A stretch of DNA of 8,945 nt from Gemmatimonadota bacterium (GTDB lineage: Bacteria; 4572-55; J002): positions 1 through 8,945 of the forward strand of contig RFFQ01000161.1 in NCBI GenBank assembly GCA_003697105.1, read 5' to 3'. Within the stretch, counting starts at the first letter, position 1; each line of letters opens with the position of its first letter. Of this stretch, positions 996-8,816 are shown piece after piece. The notes beneath the pieces were generated by a model. That model worked only from the letters and a program-made list of their open reading frames with translations. It was not told where the DNA came from and did not search any database. Made by a program: the position numbers and the translations under genes.

Positions 996-2978
996 TTATC
1001 GCTTCAACAGATTTTTTAAGGCGTTACGAACCTCTTTCATATTCGGATACCGGTCTCCGCGGTCTAGTTTGACACAGGTTAGAATGATGTGGTCCAGTGT
1101 TCGTAATACTTCGGAATTGGCGTCGCTTTCTGTCTGTAAGAGTGGATCCAAATAGAGATGGTCATAGTTGATTTGCTCTGCTGTGTAGTATTGTACTAAT
1201 TCGCTTTCCCGGGCGAAGAGCCGCCGTCCGGTGACAATCTCGTAAAACACAACCCCAAATGAGAAGAGATCGGAGCGAGGGTCTATTTTTTCACCGCGAT
1301 GTTGTTCCGGGGACATATAAATACCCGTCCCAACACGTTGTCCAACCGCCGTGACGGTGGAGCCGGCGATGTGCGCCACCCCAAAATCCGTAATTTTCAC
1401 TTCTCCCCGGCTATTTACCATAATATTGGCGGGTTTCAAATCGCGGTGGATAATTTCTTGCTGGTGCACTTCATACAAGGCATCGGCAACGCATGTCATA
1501 ATGCGGATAGCCTCCGTAAGTTTCAGCCGTCCCCGTTCTTTCAAGGAGGGTCCATCCACATATTCCATGATAATACTTCGGCGTACTTCATCAAGGTCAT
1601 AAATTTTGACAATATTGGGATGATTCAATCCCGCCGCCGCTTTAGCTTCGGAAAAGAACCGGACGATTGCCCCAGAATCTTGGTCTTGTGCCGGAAGTAA
1701 CTCCTTGATTGCGACCGTGCGAGCCAGCCGAGTATCGTGTGCTTTGTAAACCACCCCCATACCCCCCCGTCCGAGCTCTTCCAAAATCTGAAAACGGGGG
1801 GTTGCGGTGCCTTCATCCTCAGGAGCGTTAGATGAGGTGCGGGAGCTAACAAAGTTCTGAAATACACTGGAAAAAATCCGCTCGCCTTCCAAATATCCTT
1901 TGCGGTTCAAACTTTTGATGATATGCTGTTCCGAACGGGTGATCTCCTCGGCATGTACCAGCTTAATCAGTACTTTTTTTTCGGCATTATCCAGATGTTG
2001 CCAAATGTACTCAAAATGAGCCTGCGTGCTGGTTTCAAAGGCGTCTTGTAGCTCCTTAAAATCCGACTCCATGGTTTGACTGGCATCTCGACGGTGTTCA
2101 AACAACTGGTAGCAGGCAATTTGTAAAAAAAACGGGTGCAAGCCGGCTAACTGGCGAACAAACTGAACTTCTGCACAGGTCAGATCAATGCCATTTTTTT
2201 GGAATGGTTCGCGGATCAGCATGAGAGCTTCGTTTTCCGAGAAGGGTTCCAGCACAATTGAGGAAAAAATATTGAAAAAAGGTGAACCGATAATCTCATC
2301 CATTGCCACACTTTGTAAATCGCGGGCAGAACTCGTGATATAAGCAACCTTAAAGTTATTGGCAATCCCCCTCAAGAAGGCAAAAAAGTCTAAATTAAAG
2401 CTCCGGTTGCGTGTGACCAAATCAAACTCATCAAAAAAGAAGATTAGAACTTTGTCTTTATAGCGTTCAATTTTACGCACGAAGCCATCATAATCGGCAC
2501 TGGTAATTTGGTTGGAGTGTCCCACAAAGGTGGATGTTGATCCGGGCTCCTCCGGGGGATGTTCCGAGTTAGGAAAGGGACCCACCAACAACCGTTTCAC
2601 TTTGCTCAAAAAGCTTTCCGGTGCTGCGGGCGTACCGGTTTCCTTATTTTTAGCGGCAAGTTGTGCTTCTTCGTGGGTTAATTTTTCCGAGAGCAACATC
2701 AGAAATTCTTTGGGCGAGAGTTGCCCATAAATGGAAAAATCAACCGAGATAAATAGGTAGTTTTCCCAATCATCCAAATAGGTTTTGCGAACATCTGGGT
2801 GATAAATATAGTGCATCAGAGAGGATTTACCGATCCGTCTATCGCCGACAATCGAAACGGATTGCGGTCTGCCGGGGGTACTAATACGTTCGTAAATTTT
2901 GCGGATGATCTTTTTCCGCCCGTAAAAATCGGCGGGGTTTTCTATTTTCGCGCGGTTCGTATACGGATTTTGTCTCAT
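996..2978 (-). CDS. P-loop ATPase fused to a C-terminal Hanks-type Ser/Thr protein kinase
   Basis: A soluble signalling protein of 660 residues from ATG 2978. The frame is open to a TTG at 3011 (671 residues; numbering here uses that longer form). ATG is preferred because NPYTNRAKIENP right after it is where this ATPase family normally begins; neither start has a Shine-Dalgarno. ATPase: FYGR (29-32), Walker A GDRRIGKSS (56-64), Walker B LIFFFDEFD (189-197), lid motif LAGLHPFFLQ (288-297), winged helix about 331-390. A Ser/Pro-rich, probably disordered stretch (116-172) lies between Walker A and B. The kinase (407-669) is complete: GRGGMG loop (414-419), VAIK Lys436, Glu455, HRDLKPAN (522-529), DFG (542-544), SPE (567-569) and the late Arg653. 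Active kinase chemistry on Ser/Thr is therefore expected. There is no transmembrane segment, so it is cytoplasmic. It lies downstream of a membrane protein with a related ATPase, a likely partner or substrate. Confidence 0.9.
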   Translation of the reverse strand: MRQNPYTNRAKIENPADFYGRKKIIRKIYERISTPGRPQSVSIVGDRRIGKSSLMHYIYHPDVRKTYLDDWENYLFISVDFSIYGQLSPKEFLMLLSEKLTHEEAQLAAKNKETGTPAAPESFLSKVKRLLVGPFPNSEHPPEEPGSTSTFVGHSNQITSADYDGFVRKIERYKDKVLIFFFDEFDLVTRNRSFNLDFFAFLRGIANNFKVAYITSSARDLQSVAMDEIIGSPFFNIFSSIVLEPFSENEALMLIREPFQKNGIDLTCAEVQFVRQLAGLHPFFLQIACYQLFEHRRDASQTMESDFKELQDAFETSTQAHFEYIWQHLDNAEKKVLIKLVHAEEITRSEQHIIKSLNRKGYLEGERIFSSVFQNFVSSRTSSNAPEDEGTATPRFQILEELGRGGMGVVYKAHDTRLARTVAIKELLPAQDQDSGAIVRFFSEAKAAAGLNHPNIVKIYDLDEVRRSIIMEYVDGPSLKERGRLKLTEAIRIMTCVADALYEVHQQEIIHRDLKPANIMVNSRGEVKITDFGVAHIAGSTVTAVGQRVGTGIYMSPEQHRGEKIDPRSDLFSFGVVFYEIVTGRRLFARESELVQYYTAEQINYDHLYLDPLLQTESDANSEVLRTLDHIILTCVKLDRGDRYPNMKEVRNALKNLLKR

Positions 2979-3024
2979 ATCAGATGAATTTAGCCATACG
3001 GTTAATGTCAAGTAGCAGTGGTAA

Positions 3025-3086: not shown

Positions 3087-6000
3087 TCAAGTCAGGAAAG
3101 AACTCGAATGTGTGCCCTCTTCTCGTAGGGTTTTCCAAATAGAATGTTCTTCCCGAACCCATCGCCGGATTAAATTGATTTGGAAGCGGTACGTTTCCGG
3201 CGGGGATTCCTTCCTGATTATATCTTTTTTTAGCAATAAATCAAGAGTTTTCGCAACCGATTGTGGCTGAACCTGTAACCCATTGAATTGGTGAGCATTT
3301 TCGATGACCGCTCGACTTTGGAAGGACGCGGTATCCGATTCCACCAACTCGCAAATGAGCGAGAGATTGAGGCGATCTTCTGATTCAAATTCTTCATTCC
3401 ACAGATAAATTAAATGGGGTGGCGGGTTCTTGATCAATTCTTCTACAGCTTCATCCACATCCTCTATTTCGACCACACTGCGATGCTCATCGTTTAAGAT
3501 GGTGATTAAATTCCGGCAAATACATTGGATAAAATACGGATGCCCGGCGGCCAGCTCGTAGATGCGGCGGATGGAATCCTCTTCGTATATGACACTGCCT
3601 TGTACGGGGCGGGTGATCAGTTGCACGGATTCATCATAATTGAGCAAACCGATCTTTCGATAGCGCGCCACATTGAACATTTCCGGTAAATACTGCTCTT
3701 TCAAGGATTCCAACATCTGGGAGCCCACAAAAATGAAGGTCAGATAGCTCCGTTGTTCCATCAAGTGCCGAAAATAGCGGTAAATATCGGTGCTAAGGTT
3801 ATCCTGATGGACTTTACGACTGAGCAACTCGTACTCATCAAAAAGCAGAATGAGGGAGCGTTCCCCAATAACTTCAGCCACATCATCCAAAAAGGTATTG
3901 TACAAGGCATACGGGTTTTGAGAGCGGTCATCAAAGTTATAGGTTTGCATAACCATTTTTCGCAGGGAAATTGTGGGACCCACCGTGGTTTGGTAGCGGA
4001 TAAACGGGTTACCCATTTCATCGGGGTCCACCTTCGCAATGGCTTTTTCAATCCGGCGGACGAGCCGTTCGTGTTCCAAGGGTTTTTCGATCACTTTGCT
4101 GGGATGCGGCTTGACCAACGGGGGTTTTTCCGGGTTGACCAGATATAAGAGGGGGATATTGGAGAGTTTCGGGAAGTCATCTAGCAGGTCGATAAGTTGC
4201 TGCACCAAGTCCTGATCACTTTCCAAATCCATGATGATCAGCAGGGGGCGTTCTTTTTGGGCAAGCGCCGTCATTTCCGCTAAATTTTCGGCGGCTAAGA
4301 CTTCAAATTTTTCCACGCGTAGCGCCACCGACACGAGCCGGATAGTGGGGTGATCTTGGCTTAACATCAAAACTTTGCGGTAACGGTGGACAGATGGCAA
4401 TTCAATGGATTCCAATTGTTCGGCAATGTTAATGCTAATTTTTTTGAAGAAATCGTGTGTATCCACATCTGCCATTTCTTGCATGTCCACAATCACCGGA
4501 ATAAATTGTTCTCCTAACTCACCATTTCGGATTTGGTAAAGGGTGCTGGTTTTACCGACCCGGCGTTCGCCGTAGAGTACCAGCGCAACATCATGCCGAC
4601 GTGACTCAAGTTCCGCTTGAATAAACTGGAATACATCTTCTCGCCCGAAAAACATCGTTTTATCTTTGATCGGGTTACCGGTGATGTACATGTTGGTGAT
4701 TTTGGTCTCTTGGGATCGTTCACCAAACAGGTCGATTTGTCCCACAATTTGGCGGTACAACTGGTCAATCCGTTCCTGTATCCGATCTTCATAGATGGAA
4801 CGCTGTAGCAAGAATTGCCGGAGGGGTAAAATGGCTATGGGGTGCGAGCCGCTGAGAAACGTATAAATTTGGTTTTGTACCTCTTGAGGGATCGCGCCAT
4901 CCGTGACCAAAAACGCAATTCGGGTATTGTATGCCGCTTCTTCTGCCGGATGTGTGATCCGGTGGCGTAATTGCAAAATGGTATCCAGGGTTAATTTTTG
5001 GTTCGTCAAGCAGGTGACCAACGCATGGTTGAATTTCGCATATTCATGGGTTTCGGGGAAGGTTAGGCGTATGTCTGCGCTGGAGAGCCGTTCTACGTGG
5101 GCACCCAAACCTTGGAAGAAACGGCGGGTCACCTCGACCAGTTCTTCAATCCGAAACGCTTCTTCCATCGCGAGGGTGATTTTAGCGATTACATCTTTAT
5201 CGGTGGCTTGTAACAATGCTTTTTCAAAAATCGCAATAGACCGCTTATCGTATTTTTTGGTAATGGCATATACTTCTGCCAAACCCATTAAGGCAACGGC
5301 ATTTTCAGGTTGTTCTTTCAAAGCCAGTTGGTAGAGTTCCTCAGCACGATCGTAATTGCCTTGAATAAAGGCATTATGTGCCCGTTCCACATTGAGCATT
5401 TGTTGCCGTTCATGCAGGGTACGTCCCAACCAGACCGTCAAGATAATCCCCAGAACGATGACCCCGAGGGCAATGGAAAGTGATATCCGGTTCCGCTCCT
5501 GGATCCGCTGTTGCTGGATTTGGGTACGGGTAAATTGCAGTTCCATCTGTGCCATCTCAAACAGCGGGCTGTGATCGATCACACGTTCCAGTAAGGTTTC
5601 CGCCGCTTGCCAGTGGGCATTATCCATTGCGGTGGATGCTTGCTGATACAAAGAATCCATCTGCTCAATTTTATCCGCCAGCGAATCCATCGGGGACAGC
5701 AGGTTGCGCAATTGGCGTTTTGCCACGGCATAGCGCCCGCGCATAACGTTAATTTGTATCAGAATGCGCCGGGCGTCATCATTATGGCGTTGCCGTTGCA
5801 GAGCGTTTTCAGCGGCTTCGGCGGCACGGTCATAATCTTGGGTTTTAAAATATGCCTGTGCTAACAAAGTGTAAATGTTTGCCAACTTCTCCGGTTTTAA
5901 GCGGCCGGTATCCGCTTGATTGAGATACAATTCCAGAGTCAGGATAGTTTCCGAATAATGTTCCAACTGAAAATGGGTCCATGCCAGCCAGTAACTGGCG

Positions 6001-6332
6001 ATATAATGAGGTATCAAGGGGAACTCGCTTTTATCTTGCATCAATTTCAGCGCGTGCTCCAAATGGGCTAATGCCGACGGGTATTCACCGAGTTGTGCCA
6101 AACAACGCCCCAGATGGCTAATGTAAACCTCGTCATTACTCGCCAATTCAACAGCCCGTTGGTAATAAGGTAAAGCACCCGCCAAATCACCGTTGGTATA
6201 TGCGGCATAGCCCTGTTGCCAGGCATCAAAGGCGGGATCGCCACCGCCATAGACCGGCAAAGCGGTACACCACAGCCACACGCCAATAAAGTAAAGACCC
6301 CAATGAAAGGGTTTGAATGGGATTGGCATCAC
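3087..6332 (-). CDS. Transmembrane TPR sensor with P-loop ATPase domain containing an inserted receiver-like domain
   Basis: A 1081-residue protein, not recognised as a named gene. Residues 10-29 are a signal peptide or anchor. Residues 37-265 hold several TPRs predicted to be periplasmic. Residues 284-303 (LSIALGVIVLGIILTVWLG) are a transmembrane helix. Residues 316-395 hold further, cytoplasmic TPRs, and 400-540 is an unclassified alpha/beta region. The ATPase begins at FFGRED (561-566), with Walker A GERRVGKTS (588-596) and Walker B LILLFDEYE (827-835). Between them, 653-765 read as a CheY-like receiver: Asp702 in IIMDLE matches the phospho-acceptor and Lys750 in EKP the conserved Lys, but the switch Thr position is Val732 and the first acidic pair is only partly kept. 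AAGHPYFIQ (928-936) is the ATPase lid signature, and 985-1060 form a winged helix ending YRFQINLIRRWVR. GTG at 6332 and ATG at 6329 are both possible starts behind a strong AGGAGG. It is probably a membrane-anchored signalling switch. Confidence 0.85.
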   Translation of the reverse strand: MMPIPFKPFHWGLYFIGVWLWCTALPVYGGGDPAFDAWQQGYAAYTNGDLAGALPYYQRAVELASNDEVYISHLGRCLAQLGEYPSALAHLEHALKLMQDKSEFPLIPHYIASYWLAWTHFQLEHYSETILTLELYLNQADTGRLKPEKLANIYTLLAQAYFKTQDYDRAAEAAENALQRQRHNDDARRILIQINVMRGRYAVAKRQLRNLLSPMDSLADKIEQMDSLYQQASTAMDNAHWQAAETLLERVIDHSPLFEMAQMELQFTRTQIQQQRIQERNRISLSIALGVIVLGIILTVWLGRTLHERQQMLNVERAHNAFIQGNYDRAEELYQLALKEQPENAVALMGLAEVYAITKKYDKRSIAIFEKALLQATDKDVIAKITLAMEEAFRIEELVEVTRRFFQGLGAHVERLSSADIRLTFPETHEYAKFNHALVTCLTNQKLTLDTILQLRHRITHPAEEAAYNTRIAFLVTDGAIPQEVQNQIYTFLSGSHPIAILPLRQFLLQRSIYEDRIQERIDQLYRQIVGQIDLFGERSQETKITNMYITGNPIKDKTMFFGREDVFQFIQAELESRRHDVALVLYGERRVGKTSTLYQIRNGELGEQFIPVIVDMQEMADVDTHDFFKKISINIAEQLESIELPSVHRYRKVLMLSQDHPTIRLVSVALRVEKFEVLAAENLAEMTALAQKERPLLIIMDLESDQDLVQQLIDLLDDFPKLSNIPLLYLVNPEKPPLVKPHPSKVIEKPLEHERLVRRIEKAIAKVDPDEMGNPFIRYQTTVGPTISLRKMVMQTYNFDDRSQNPYALYNTFLDDVAEVIGERSLILLFDEYELLSRKVHQDNLSTDIYRYFRHLMEQRSYLTFIFVGSQMLESLKEQYLPEMFNVARYRKIGLLNYDESVQLITRPVQGSVIYEEDSIRRIYELAAGHPYFIQCICRNLITILNDEHRSVVEIEDVDEAVEELIKNPPPHLIYLWNEEFESEDRLNLSLICELVESDTASFQSRAVIENAHQFNGLQVQPQSVAKTLDLLLKKDIIRKESPPETYRFQINLIRRWVREEHSIWKTLREEGTHSSSFLT

Positions 6333-6339
6333 TATGTTG

Positions 6340-6345
6340 CCTCCT
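6340..6345 (-). promoter_or_regulatory. Strong Shine-Dalgarno (AGGAGG) for the transmembrane ATPase gene
   Basis: The transcript reads GTAGGAGGCAACATAGTGATG. A perfect AGGAGG stands 7 bases before GTG (6332) and 10 before ATG (6329). The 7-base spacing favours GTG slightly, but both starts can be used and differ by one residue. The site lies in the 27-base gap after the upstream stop, which fits co-transcription. It is the only clear Shine-Dalgarno seen among the four genes. Confidence 0.85.
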
Positions 6346-6359
6346 ACCCGCGGATTCCC

Positions 6360-8816
6360 CTATTCTGCCATCTTTTTGATTTGGTCTTGAATATCATCAC
6401 GGAGTTGGCGGGCTTCCGGGGTGTTTTGGTAATCCAAAGCTTGCTGGATGAGACGGAGTGCCTCCGGCATATTCCCCTGTTGAAACGCGGATCGAGCATT
6501 GGTATAGGATTCTTGATACCGAATCCAGTTTCGCGCGTTTTGGGCACGCTGTTCCAACACGGGTTTGACCTCGGCGGAGGCATAGGTTTTCGCGGTTTCA
6601 AAGGCATGAATTGCCGCCTCCCAATCACCATCAATCACATGTGCGTCACCTAAACTGGTCCATGCCGTGACCAATTTGGCACGAACTTCTTCGGCATTAG
6701 GACGAAGGTTCAGAGCGTTTTCCAAGGCGTCAATACTGCCTTCCCAATCGTTATCGGTAAGCTTTTCCAATGCGGTTTGGTAGTATTGTTCAAACGCTTT
6801 GGCTTTGCGTTCTTCTTTTTGGGCATTCAAGTAGGTATGTCGCCACGAGTCATACAGGGCGATATCCGTGCTGAGGACCCGCCGAATCCGATTTTTCGCG
6901 GGCGGGCGTGGACGCTGGGGGGGCGTAAACTTCACGGCGAAGTACTTCGCACGGGCATCTTTGGTGAAGAGGATGTCCGGGTTTTGGCGGTATAATTCCA
7001 AACCGGTCGTCCACGCCTCAAAAAAGCCATCCTGATCGATCTTTCTTAAAGCTAGGGGTATCCAAAGGTGGTTATCCCGTTCGATAAATTCAAAGCGCGT
7101 CACCAGATACGGAGGGATCTCCTGCAATTTTCGGTCAGACGGTACACCGCTATCAAACATGACTAACAATTCATCGGGGAACGCGAGAATTGCGGTGTTG
7201 ATTTGGTGGTTTTCCAGCAAGGTGACCACCAAAGTCGTGATGTCATCAAAATCGCCGGTTGGTGGCGACTCTGACAAGAGTTCGAGGGGATATTTGACGA
7301 TGTTCCGTTGGAGTACTTTGGCATGGCGGTAGGGGATTTCGGGGTCGGGTTGGTACGCCAATCCGGTCGCTTGCAAGGTGCAGTAGATTTGCATGGCGGT
7401 GATGATATTTTCCGGCAAATCAATAATCAGGTCGTCACTAAGAATCAACTGGACATAGGAATTAATCCACTCGTGGGTGGGGGTGATGAAGTGGGCAAGG
7501 CGTTCTTCGCTCTCCCACAGGCATTTGCCACGACGATAAATGGTAAATTCGGTCTCGTAGGTGGTGGGTAAATAGGATTGGTTTGCATACGAGATGGTGA
7601 TCTGAACCGGTTGTTTCCGATCCGCTTCCAATTGAATAACATCTTCGGGAAGGGGGACTTTCACTACTTCTGAGGTCACCCGGCGCGGCTCAATCGATTT
7701 TCGTTCTTGCGAGATATACGGCACCATCATGGTGCCATCCAGATTGATCGGGACTTGGGTTTCAATAATACACTCAATGGTTTCGTTGGCTTCGTTTTCG
7801 AGTTCTAACATTGCCACCGGTTGATTATTGGCATATTGGGAGGCGTACACATCGGTGATATGCATATTCCGAATGCGGATTGAAGCGGGTATCCCAGAAA
7901 GTGTCAGGGACAAAAAATGGGTTCCGGGCAGTGTCGGCGGGCTTTCATAGGTATAGTCCACCCGGATCATTTCAAAAGGTTGGATGAGCCGGAACGGCAA
8001 TTTCAGGCTGGTTCCAAATGCTTGTGTCGGGGCTTCATCATTGTGGCGCTCCAGCCGCAGACCGGCTCTTAGCCCGAGCACATCAAACAGATAAACCTCA
8101 CCACCCATTGCCACGTAATCACTCCATTCCAACGTCACCAAGGGATCGGAAAGACGAACACCGTACCACGACCGCGAATTGAAAAGGGTGTAACTGGCAC
8201 CATAGTGCATCAATTGGGGCAAATAGATGTCTTCGTGATCAAGTCCCGAATATTTGACTTCAGAATCTGTTAAGTCCTCCCAAACGACTCCCAGCCGTAA
8301 CCGCTCATTGTAGTTGTACATCAAGCCCACATCAATACCATCACCGGTGGATTCGCCCTGCTTCACACCGTCCCAATCCATCTGTTGAAAAATGCTCTTA
8401 AAACTAATACCCACACTCAAACCGCCGTATAGCGCTACGGCTAGCGAGGCATACAACCGTCCATCCTGAAATACCAGTTCCTTGTCATCATAGCCGTAGG
8501 TATAAAAATTAAAGCCGAGCATAGAATGACGCCAAAAGGGGAATGCCAGTGCCAAATTTAGATTTTCAATACCGGCACCGAATCGATTATCTGTGTACGT
8601 ACTGGTAAGTTGTCCGGTACTTAAATCCGCCAACCCGGCGGGATTCCAATAAATAGCATTGGCATCATTCGAGACGGCGACATATGCTCCCCCCAGCCCA
8701 ATCGGGCGGGCGCCCATCGGTACCTGCTGCCGGTTCAGGGCAAAGCTAGGCAACGAAAAGCCTGTGATGCCCAAAAGGAGGACCCACAAAACGAAACATT
8801 GTGAAAATCGCGTCAT
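6360..8816 (-). CDS. Outer-membrane PorV/UPF0164-like barrel protein with degenerate transglutaminase-like domain and C-terminal TPRs
   Basis: An 818-residue exported protein. Residues 1-26 form a signal peptide (hydrophobic FVLWVLLLGITGF core, likely cut after PSFA). Residues 33-65 carry the GARPIGLGGAYVAVS...NPAGLADL pattern that opens PorV/FadL/UPF0164-type outer-membrane proteins. Alternating beta strands run to about 308, so this part is probably a barrel. Residues 310-435 look like a beta-sandwich. Residues 440-630 follow the layout of a transglutaminase-like domain (VKYPLELL, GDFDD at 521-525, MFDSG, WIP at 585-587, then FFEAW), but the expected Cys is Phe523 and the expected His is lost. 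A Pro/Arg-rich linker (632-646) leads to about three TPRs (671-795). The start is fixed because an in-frame TAG lies two codons upstream; no clear Shine-Dalgarno is seen. It is first in the presumed operon, 27 bases before the transmembrane ATPase gene. The barrel and TPR calls are solid; the transglutaminase call rests on remembered family pattern. The role is probably a structural or sensory scaffold rather than an enzyme. Confidence 0.8.
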   Translation of the reverse strand: MTRFSQCFVLWVLLLGITGFSLPSFALNRQQVPMGARPIGLGGAYVAVSNDANAIYWNPAGLADLSTGQLTSTYTDNRFGAGIENLNLALAFPFWRHSMLGFNFYTYGYDDKELVFQDGRLYASLAVALYGGLSVGISFKSIFQQMDWDGVKQGESTGDGIDVGLMYNYNERLRLGVVWEDLTDSEVKYSGLDHEDIYLPQLMHYGASYTLFNSRSWYGVRLSDPLVTLEWSDYVAMGGEVYLFDVLGLRAGLRLERHNDEAPTQAFGTSLKLPFRLIQPFEMIRVDYTYESPPTLPGTHFLSLTLSGIPASIRIRNMHITDVYASQYANNQPVAMLELENEANETIECIIETQVPINLDGTMMVPYISQERKSIEPRRVTSEVVKVPLPEDVIQLEADRKQPVQITISYANQSYLPTTYETEFTIYRRGKCLWESEERLAHFITPTHEWINSYVQLILSDDLIIDLPENIITAMQIYCTLQATGLAYQPDPEIPYRHAKVLQRNIVKYPLELLSESPPTGDFDDITTLVVTLLENHQINTAILAFPDELLVMFDSGVPSDRKLQEIPPYLVTRFEFIERDNHLWIPLALRKIDQDGFFEAWTTGLELYRQNPDILFTKDARAKYFAVKFTPPQRPRPPAKNRIRRVLSTDIALYDSWRHTYLNAQKEERKAKAFEQYYQTALEKLTDNDWEGSIDALENALNLRPNAEEVRAKLVTAWTSLGDAHVIDGDWEAAIHAFETAKTYASAEVKPVLEQRAQNARNWIRYQESYTNARSAFQQGNMPEALRLIQQALDYQNTPEARQLRDDIQDQIKKMAE

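Follow-up and report, generated by a model that had tools for sequence, protein, structure and literature searches.

In response regulators with an ATPase output, for example those of the NtrC family, the receiver lies ahead of the ATPase and becomes phosphorylated. Bacterial pseudo-receivers, such as those of KaiA, CikA, FrzS, and ShkA, have the receiver fold with catalytic residues missing and an altered β3-α3 region (PMC12632262), and they normally lie at the end of the protein or between whole domains. Their working is largely a mystery, and the direct modes known so far are covalent modification, multimeric state, and ligand binding (PMC12632262). The two-gene nSTAND2 conflict operon (Kaur et al., 2021; PMC8195603, Figure 6C) consists of adjacent genes encoding proteins with a STAND NTPase core each, one of which bears an effector domain (GT4 or HEPN). 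Its products were predicted to form a hetero-multimer, in which one of the two NTPases is inactive and fused to the effector.

The DNA analyzed here (the window) spans a complete short contig (8945 bases) from a draft bacterial genome. It carries four genes arranged head to tail on the minus strand, which encode a PorV/PorQ-like protein with TPRs, a 1081-aa protein (P0001), an nSTAND2-protein kinase (P0003), and a PhzF-like enzyme. P0001 is similar to the NtrC family in having a receiver and an ATPase in one chain, but its receiver lies within the ATPase domain. The features listed above for the bacterial pseudo-receivers, that is, the fold (as predicted), the missing catalytic residues, and the altered β3-α3 region, were all found in this domain. 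It differs from them in being nested in a P-loop ATPase, in the absence of helix 4 from its model, and in keeping the Asp and Lys while both acidic residues are lost. The P0001–P0003 pair resembles the operon of Kaur et al. (2021; PMC8195603), as two adjacent genes encode a STAND NTPase each, an effector domain is carried by one of the proteins, and this partner matches Pfam nSTAND2. In contrast to that operon, both ATPases of the window have intact Walker A and B motifs, a protein kinase serves as the effector, and P0001 is membrane-anchored and contains TPRs and the nested pseudo-receiver. Since both ATPases keep their motifs, the pair is regarded as a relative of this design and only possibly as a member of it.

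Architecture of the insert-bearing ATPase

P0001 shows the properties of P-loop STAND/AAA-like ATPases, as the Walker A, Walker B, and GHPYFIQ motifs are all conserved (Table 1), and its Walker B ends in D832-E833 (SLILLFDEYEL, 826–836). The AAA_14 model scored 28.0 bits on P0001 (cut-off 27), and the Pfam nSTAND2 model (cut-off 24 bits) gave no match on its ATPase part at E ≤ 0.001, while 3 of the 20 members of the P0001 ATPase alignment do match nSTAND2. In the likely topology of P0001, a single transmembrane helix separates TPRs outside from further TPRs and the ATPase inside. The PorV/PorQ-like protein and the membrane-anchored P0001 could form a chain spanning the cell envelope. The hydrophobic N-terminus of the former is likely a signal peptide. 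The gene of the PhzF-like enzyme (143–937 bp of the window, minus strand) closes the gene row.

Table 1. Position of the features of the P0001 locus in the window
Feature	Residues	Window position	Strand	Basis or remark
PorV/PorQ-like protein with C-terminal TPRs (upstream gene)		6360–8816	−	Domain matches; 27 bp before the ATPase gene
P0001, 1081 aa: signal/anchor, TPRs, transmembrane helix, TPRs, STAND/AAA-like ATPase with nested pseudo-receiver		3087–6332	−	
N-terminal TPR region of P0001	38–258	5559–6221	−	Domain match; probably outside the inner membrane (inferred topology)
Transmembrane helix of P0001	283–301	5430–5486	−	Hydropathy
Second TPR region of P0001	317–373	5214–5384	−	Domain match; probably cytoplasmic (inferred topology)
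Walker A of P0001, GERRVGKTS	588–596	4545–4571	−	
Whole insert (~152 residues): receiver and ~34-residue tether	~648–799	3936–4391	−	Comparison with the ATPase family
Pseudo-receiver domain of P0001	653–765	4038–4376	−	NCBIfam, hhalign, predicted fold
Two metal-binding acidic positions, both lost	Ser658-Gln659	4356–4361	−	Ungapped register
Phospho-acceptor position, kept	Asp702	4227–4229	−	
Conserved Lys position, kept	Lys750	4083–4085	−	
Walker B of P0001, LILLFDEYE	827–835	3828–3854	−	
GHPYFIQ motif common to the ATPase family	930–936	3525–3545	−	Alignments with relatives
P0003, 671 aa, nSTAND2 ATPase fused to protein kinase domain (partner gene)		996–3011	−	nSTAND2 3.8e-37, Pkinase 1.8e-49

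Identification of the receiver domain

An earlier, sequence-only reading proposed that a segment of the 1081-aa protein reads like a receiver. The corresponding part of the window translates exactly into residues 653–765, and the proposal was supported by NCBIfam, hhalign, the search of the own genome, MAFFT, and the predicted fold. The DivK-like receiver model NF045717 of NCBIfam matched residues 652–765 with an E value of 2.9e-6. When the full P0001 was compared with a profile of 30 receivers, hhalign picked the segment 652–771 (probability 96%, E 2.8e-9) and, without any fold model, aligned 109–119 residues end to end with receivers. Searching the genome with its own insert yielded 16 non-self places, at least 14 of which were in Pfam-listed receivers, the closest matches being only ~26% identical. 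After 55 receivers were added to a 546-aa segment by MAFFT, their Asp fell on D702 in all 55 cases and their Lys on K750 in 54. In the recommended check with the Pfam Response_reg model (PF00072), the score of 22.4 bits for the domain alone and of 19.7 bits in the full protein remained below the curated cut-off of 30.2. A six-frame scan of the genome with the Pfam receiver model listed 134 other places and missed the insert of P0001. The top matches of the insert among solved structures were mostly receivers, each of them weak (E 0.03 or more).

The alignment used for fold prediction mixed ATPase and receiver rows and had been tuned on a few columns, also by random-subset and hill-climbing searches. 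The 39 receiver rows were correct at D702 and K750, and the 16 ATPase rows were wrongly aligned past Walker A, thus only the receiver part of the model was used. Folding of residues 536–1081 without an alignment gave an unusable model (pLDDT 35.6). As had been expected, residues 653–765 take a receiver fold in the prediction, while the ATPase half and the placement of the receiver on it were not interpreted. The predicted receiver part (pLDDT 81–96) has the five strands and helices 1, 2, 3, and 5 of a (β-α)5 fold, helix 4 being absent. It fits solved receivers at Z 16–17, and the comparison with the YycF receiver (3f6p) gave Z 17.4 and an rmsd of 2.3. The top-ranked rows were all receivers in VIA-align and nearly all in Foldseek. 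Because of the receiver rows in its alignment, the fold prediction is in part tied to the sequence result. These rows and the Pfam score below the cut-off would agree with the assumption that the segment simply belongs to the ATPase fold or is another Rossmann-like domain mimicking a receiver. This is, nevertheless, very improbable, considering that the segment is wholly missing in the relatives, that the end-to-end hhalign alignment was obtained independently of the model, and that both structure comparisons were dominated by receivers.

Position of the receiver within the ATPase domain

The two Walker motifs are separated by 234 residues in P0001 versus 66–104 (median 86) in 98 relatives, which shows that the receiver is nested between them, as the sequence-only reading had stated. 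The insert was missing from the 19 relatives in a 20-protein alignment, where the ATPase alignment resumed cleanly and in frame on both sides. Likewise, a paralogue encoded in the same genome (contig C67) and the ATPases of two other genomes (G001 and G046) align on both flanks without the insert segment. The receiver identity and the nesting are jointly well supported, and we see little room for doubt about them. The insertion site is a short connection joining two predicted helices ahead of the Walker B strand, and it is a short loop in the relatives. The further claim that the nucleotide-binding core is interrupted had to be abandoned: no core strand is broken, and the insert replaces or extends the loop between these helices. 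The third-position G+C of the insert is 0.62 versus 0.46 and 0.52 in the flanks, and its codon choice is similar to that of the neighbors.

The search for homologues with the same insertion, which had been suggested earlier, succeeded only in finding relatives of the ATPase; no second carrier of the insert was found in these searches, which were capped. None of the 74 loci fetched from public genomes was seen to contain the insert. A 250-aa probe spanning both junctions found no other carrier in 39 genomes holding such ATPases, in 82 genomes of the phylum of G046, or among the best six candidates per genome in 396 genomes of the class of G388. The same result was obtained with the whole P0001 among the best two candidates per genome in 386 genomes. 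The matches in these searches represented either the receiver alone or the ATPase alone, and no nested arrangement was present in the five that were checked, among them those with the longest frames. In viral contigs, no relative was found with the insert profile, and the whole P0001 gave only a 16-residue match. Phrase searches of the literature, which are weak evidence, found nothing on an inserted receiver. Judged from the sequences compared, the nested pseudo-receiver arrangement appears in none of roughly 100 related ATPases.

A single known carrier among the searched genomes and the origin of the window, a whole short contig of a draft assembly, might also be expected if two unrelated frames had been joined by an assembly or annotation artefact. 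We consider this highly implausible, since the 1081 codons form a single uninterrupted frame, the ATPase homology picks up in frame on both flanks, the receiver is no copy of any other one in the genome, and the codon usage is that of the neighbors.

State of the receiver active site

The spacing from the Asp to the fourth strand is receiver-typical, as had been noted (30 residues between Asp702 and Val732). The five active-site residues DD, D, T, and K read S658, Q659, D702, V732, and K750 in P0001, the first two being assigned on the basis of an ungapped register common to MAFFT and hhalign. Accordingly, the Val reported at the Thr position was right, and so was the loss in the acidic pair, but this pair proved to be not merely incomplete, as both of its members are gone. 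Working receivers have Pro at D+4, Gly at D+8, and an aromatic residue at K−3, and these are reduced among pseudo-receivers (PMC12632262); the corresponding residues of P0001 are Asp706, Val710, and Val747, respectively, the last of them at the position of the switch aromatic. By the definition taken from PMC12632262, the insert is clearly a pseudo-receiver, which is recognized as a receiver by profiles and is devoid of key catalytic residues, although the Pfam cut-off itself is not reached. The loss of the acidic pair, the Thr, and the switch aromatic, together with the missing helix 4, agrees with the pseudo-receiver interpretation offered earlier. On the other hand, a domain that has lost its metal-binding pair, Thr, and switch aromatic is unlikely to couple phosphorylation to ATP use, a possibility that had also been raised.

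For the same reason, it is improbable that the domain is a working, if weak, receiver whose Asp702 is phosphorylated by a histidine kinase of the genome, thereby switching the ATPase. Asp702 and Lys750 are exactly in place, the 134 receiver matches indicate that a two-component network is present in the genome, and some Asp-bearing pseudo-receivers may be less efficient receivers (PMC12632262). However, besides the metal-binding acidic residues, the Thr, and the K−3 aromatic, the D+4 Pro and D+8 Gly are also lost, and the model lacks helix 4, which belongs to the usual output face. Alternatively, the insert might be a passive, neutral domain that a surface loop tolerates and that has no regulatory role. 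Its occurrence in a single protein among ~100 relatives, the short loop at the insertion point, and the loss of many catalytic residues are consistent with this. Conversely, the hydrophobic pattern that determines the fold was kept, as were the Asp and Lys, despite the deep divergence from even the best match in the own genome (~26% identity), and this, like the open frame and the normal codon usage, suggests maintenance, so we find a passive insertion rather doubtful.

The two-ATPase operon and a possible function of the insert

The genes of P0001 and P0003 are on the same strand, 75 bp apart. P0003 scored 128.5 bits with the nSTAND2 model (cut-off 24), and its kinase and Walker motifs are intact. 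A same-strand neighboring gene encoding a second ATPase of the P0003 type was found in 61 of the 74 related loci (Chloroflexi, Cyanobacteria, and others), showing that the pairing is conserved. Seven loci, which all come from Chloroflexi, have a partner ATPase with a protein kinase like that of P0003, and the partners of two other loci bear a TIR domain. P0001 is the sensor-side member of a widespread type of two-ATPase operon and is paired here with an nSTAND2-protein kinase. PADLOC gave no match for P0001, and the best 25 matches of P0003 were all due to the generic kinase domain.

The following scenario could account for these data. A receiver-type domain would have been inserted into the inter-helix loop just before the Walker B strand and would have become a pseudo-receiver later. 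It may act as a phosphorylation-independent docking or ligand-binding arm on the ATPase, which would gate the assembly or the ATP cycle of P0001, and the gated ATPase would control the adjoining P0003. We estimate the probability of the whole explanation, that is, a sensor-side ATPase of a two-ATPase operon gated by a phosphorylation-independent pseudo-receiver and controlling a kinase, at roughly one half. The mechanism taken alone, in which a docking or ligand-binding arm gates the ATPase and hence the partner kinase, has more support than the other proposals but is a tentative candidate. Within it, we infer that the insert most likely binds a partner or ligand, that the binding affects ATP use, and that the kinase is the output. 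More specifically, the pseudo-receiver might be an allosteric arm: a partner, possibly the nSTAND2-kinase, or a ligand would bind to it and move the helix preceding Walker B, which would directly start or stop ATP hydrolysis or the assembly of oligomers. We regard this particular form as rather unlikely. The following points count against the preferred explanation: the retention of Asp702 and Lys750 is unexpected under pure decay, phosphorylation sometimes survives substitutions at DD, T, or K (PMC12632262), and the insert has been seen in one protein only. If true, the preferred explanation would mean that a motor domain directly acquired a switch that needs no phosphorylation. As the pseudo-receiver is physically wired into the ATPase domain, its effect could be readable directly as ATPase activity, for which the related ATPases lacking the insert offer a clean control.

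Related loci

The Chloroflexi loci encoding an nSTAND2-kinase and an ATPase (e.g., L023, L025, L028–L031, L039) contain the same gene pair as the window, but their ATPases are devoid of the receiver insert and their Walker A–B distance falls within the range of 66–104 residues. The sensor-side ATPases of the related loci bear varied extra parts, namely GAF, TPR, periplasmic binding protein, S1, or CARDB. The case of P0001 implies that two-ATPase operons can gain regulatory parts within the motor domain as well as at the ends. In the paralogous ATPase of the own genome (L018, positions 4491–8501 of this locus; contig C67), which has no insert, TPRs and a long region resembling a coiled coil come after the ATPase, and its gene adjoins a 2-oxoglutarate dehydrogenase-like gene on the opposite strand. 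A related ATPase from an Anaerolineales genome is fused to S1 RNA-binding domains (L021, 3331–7179), and another one, from a cyanobacterium, to a periplasmic-binding-protein-like domain (L033, 5962–8787).
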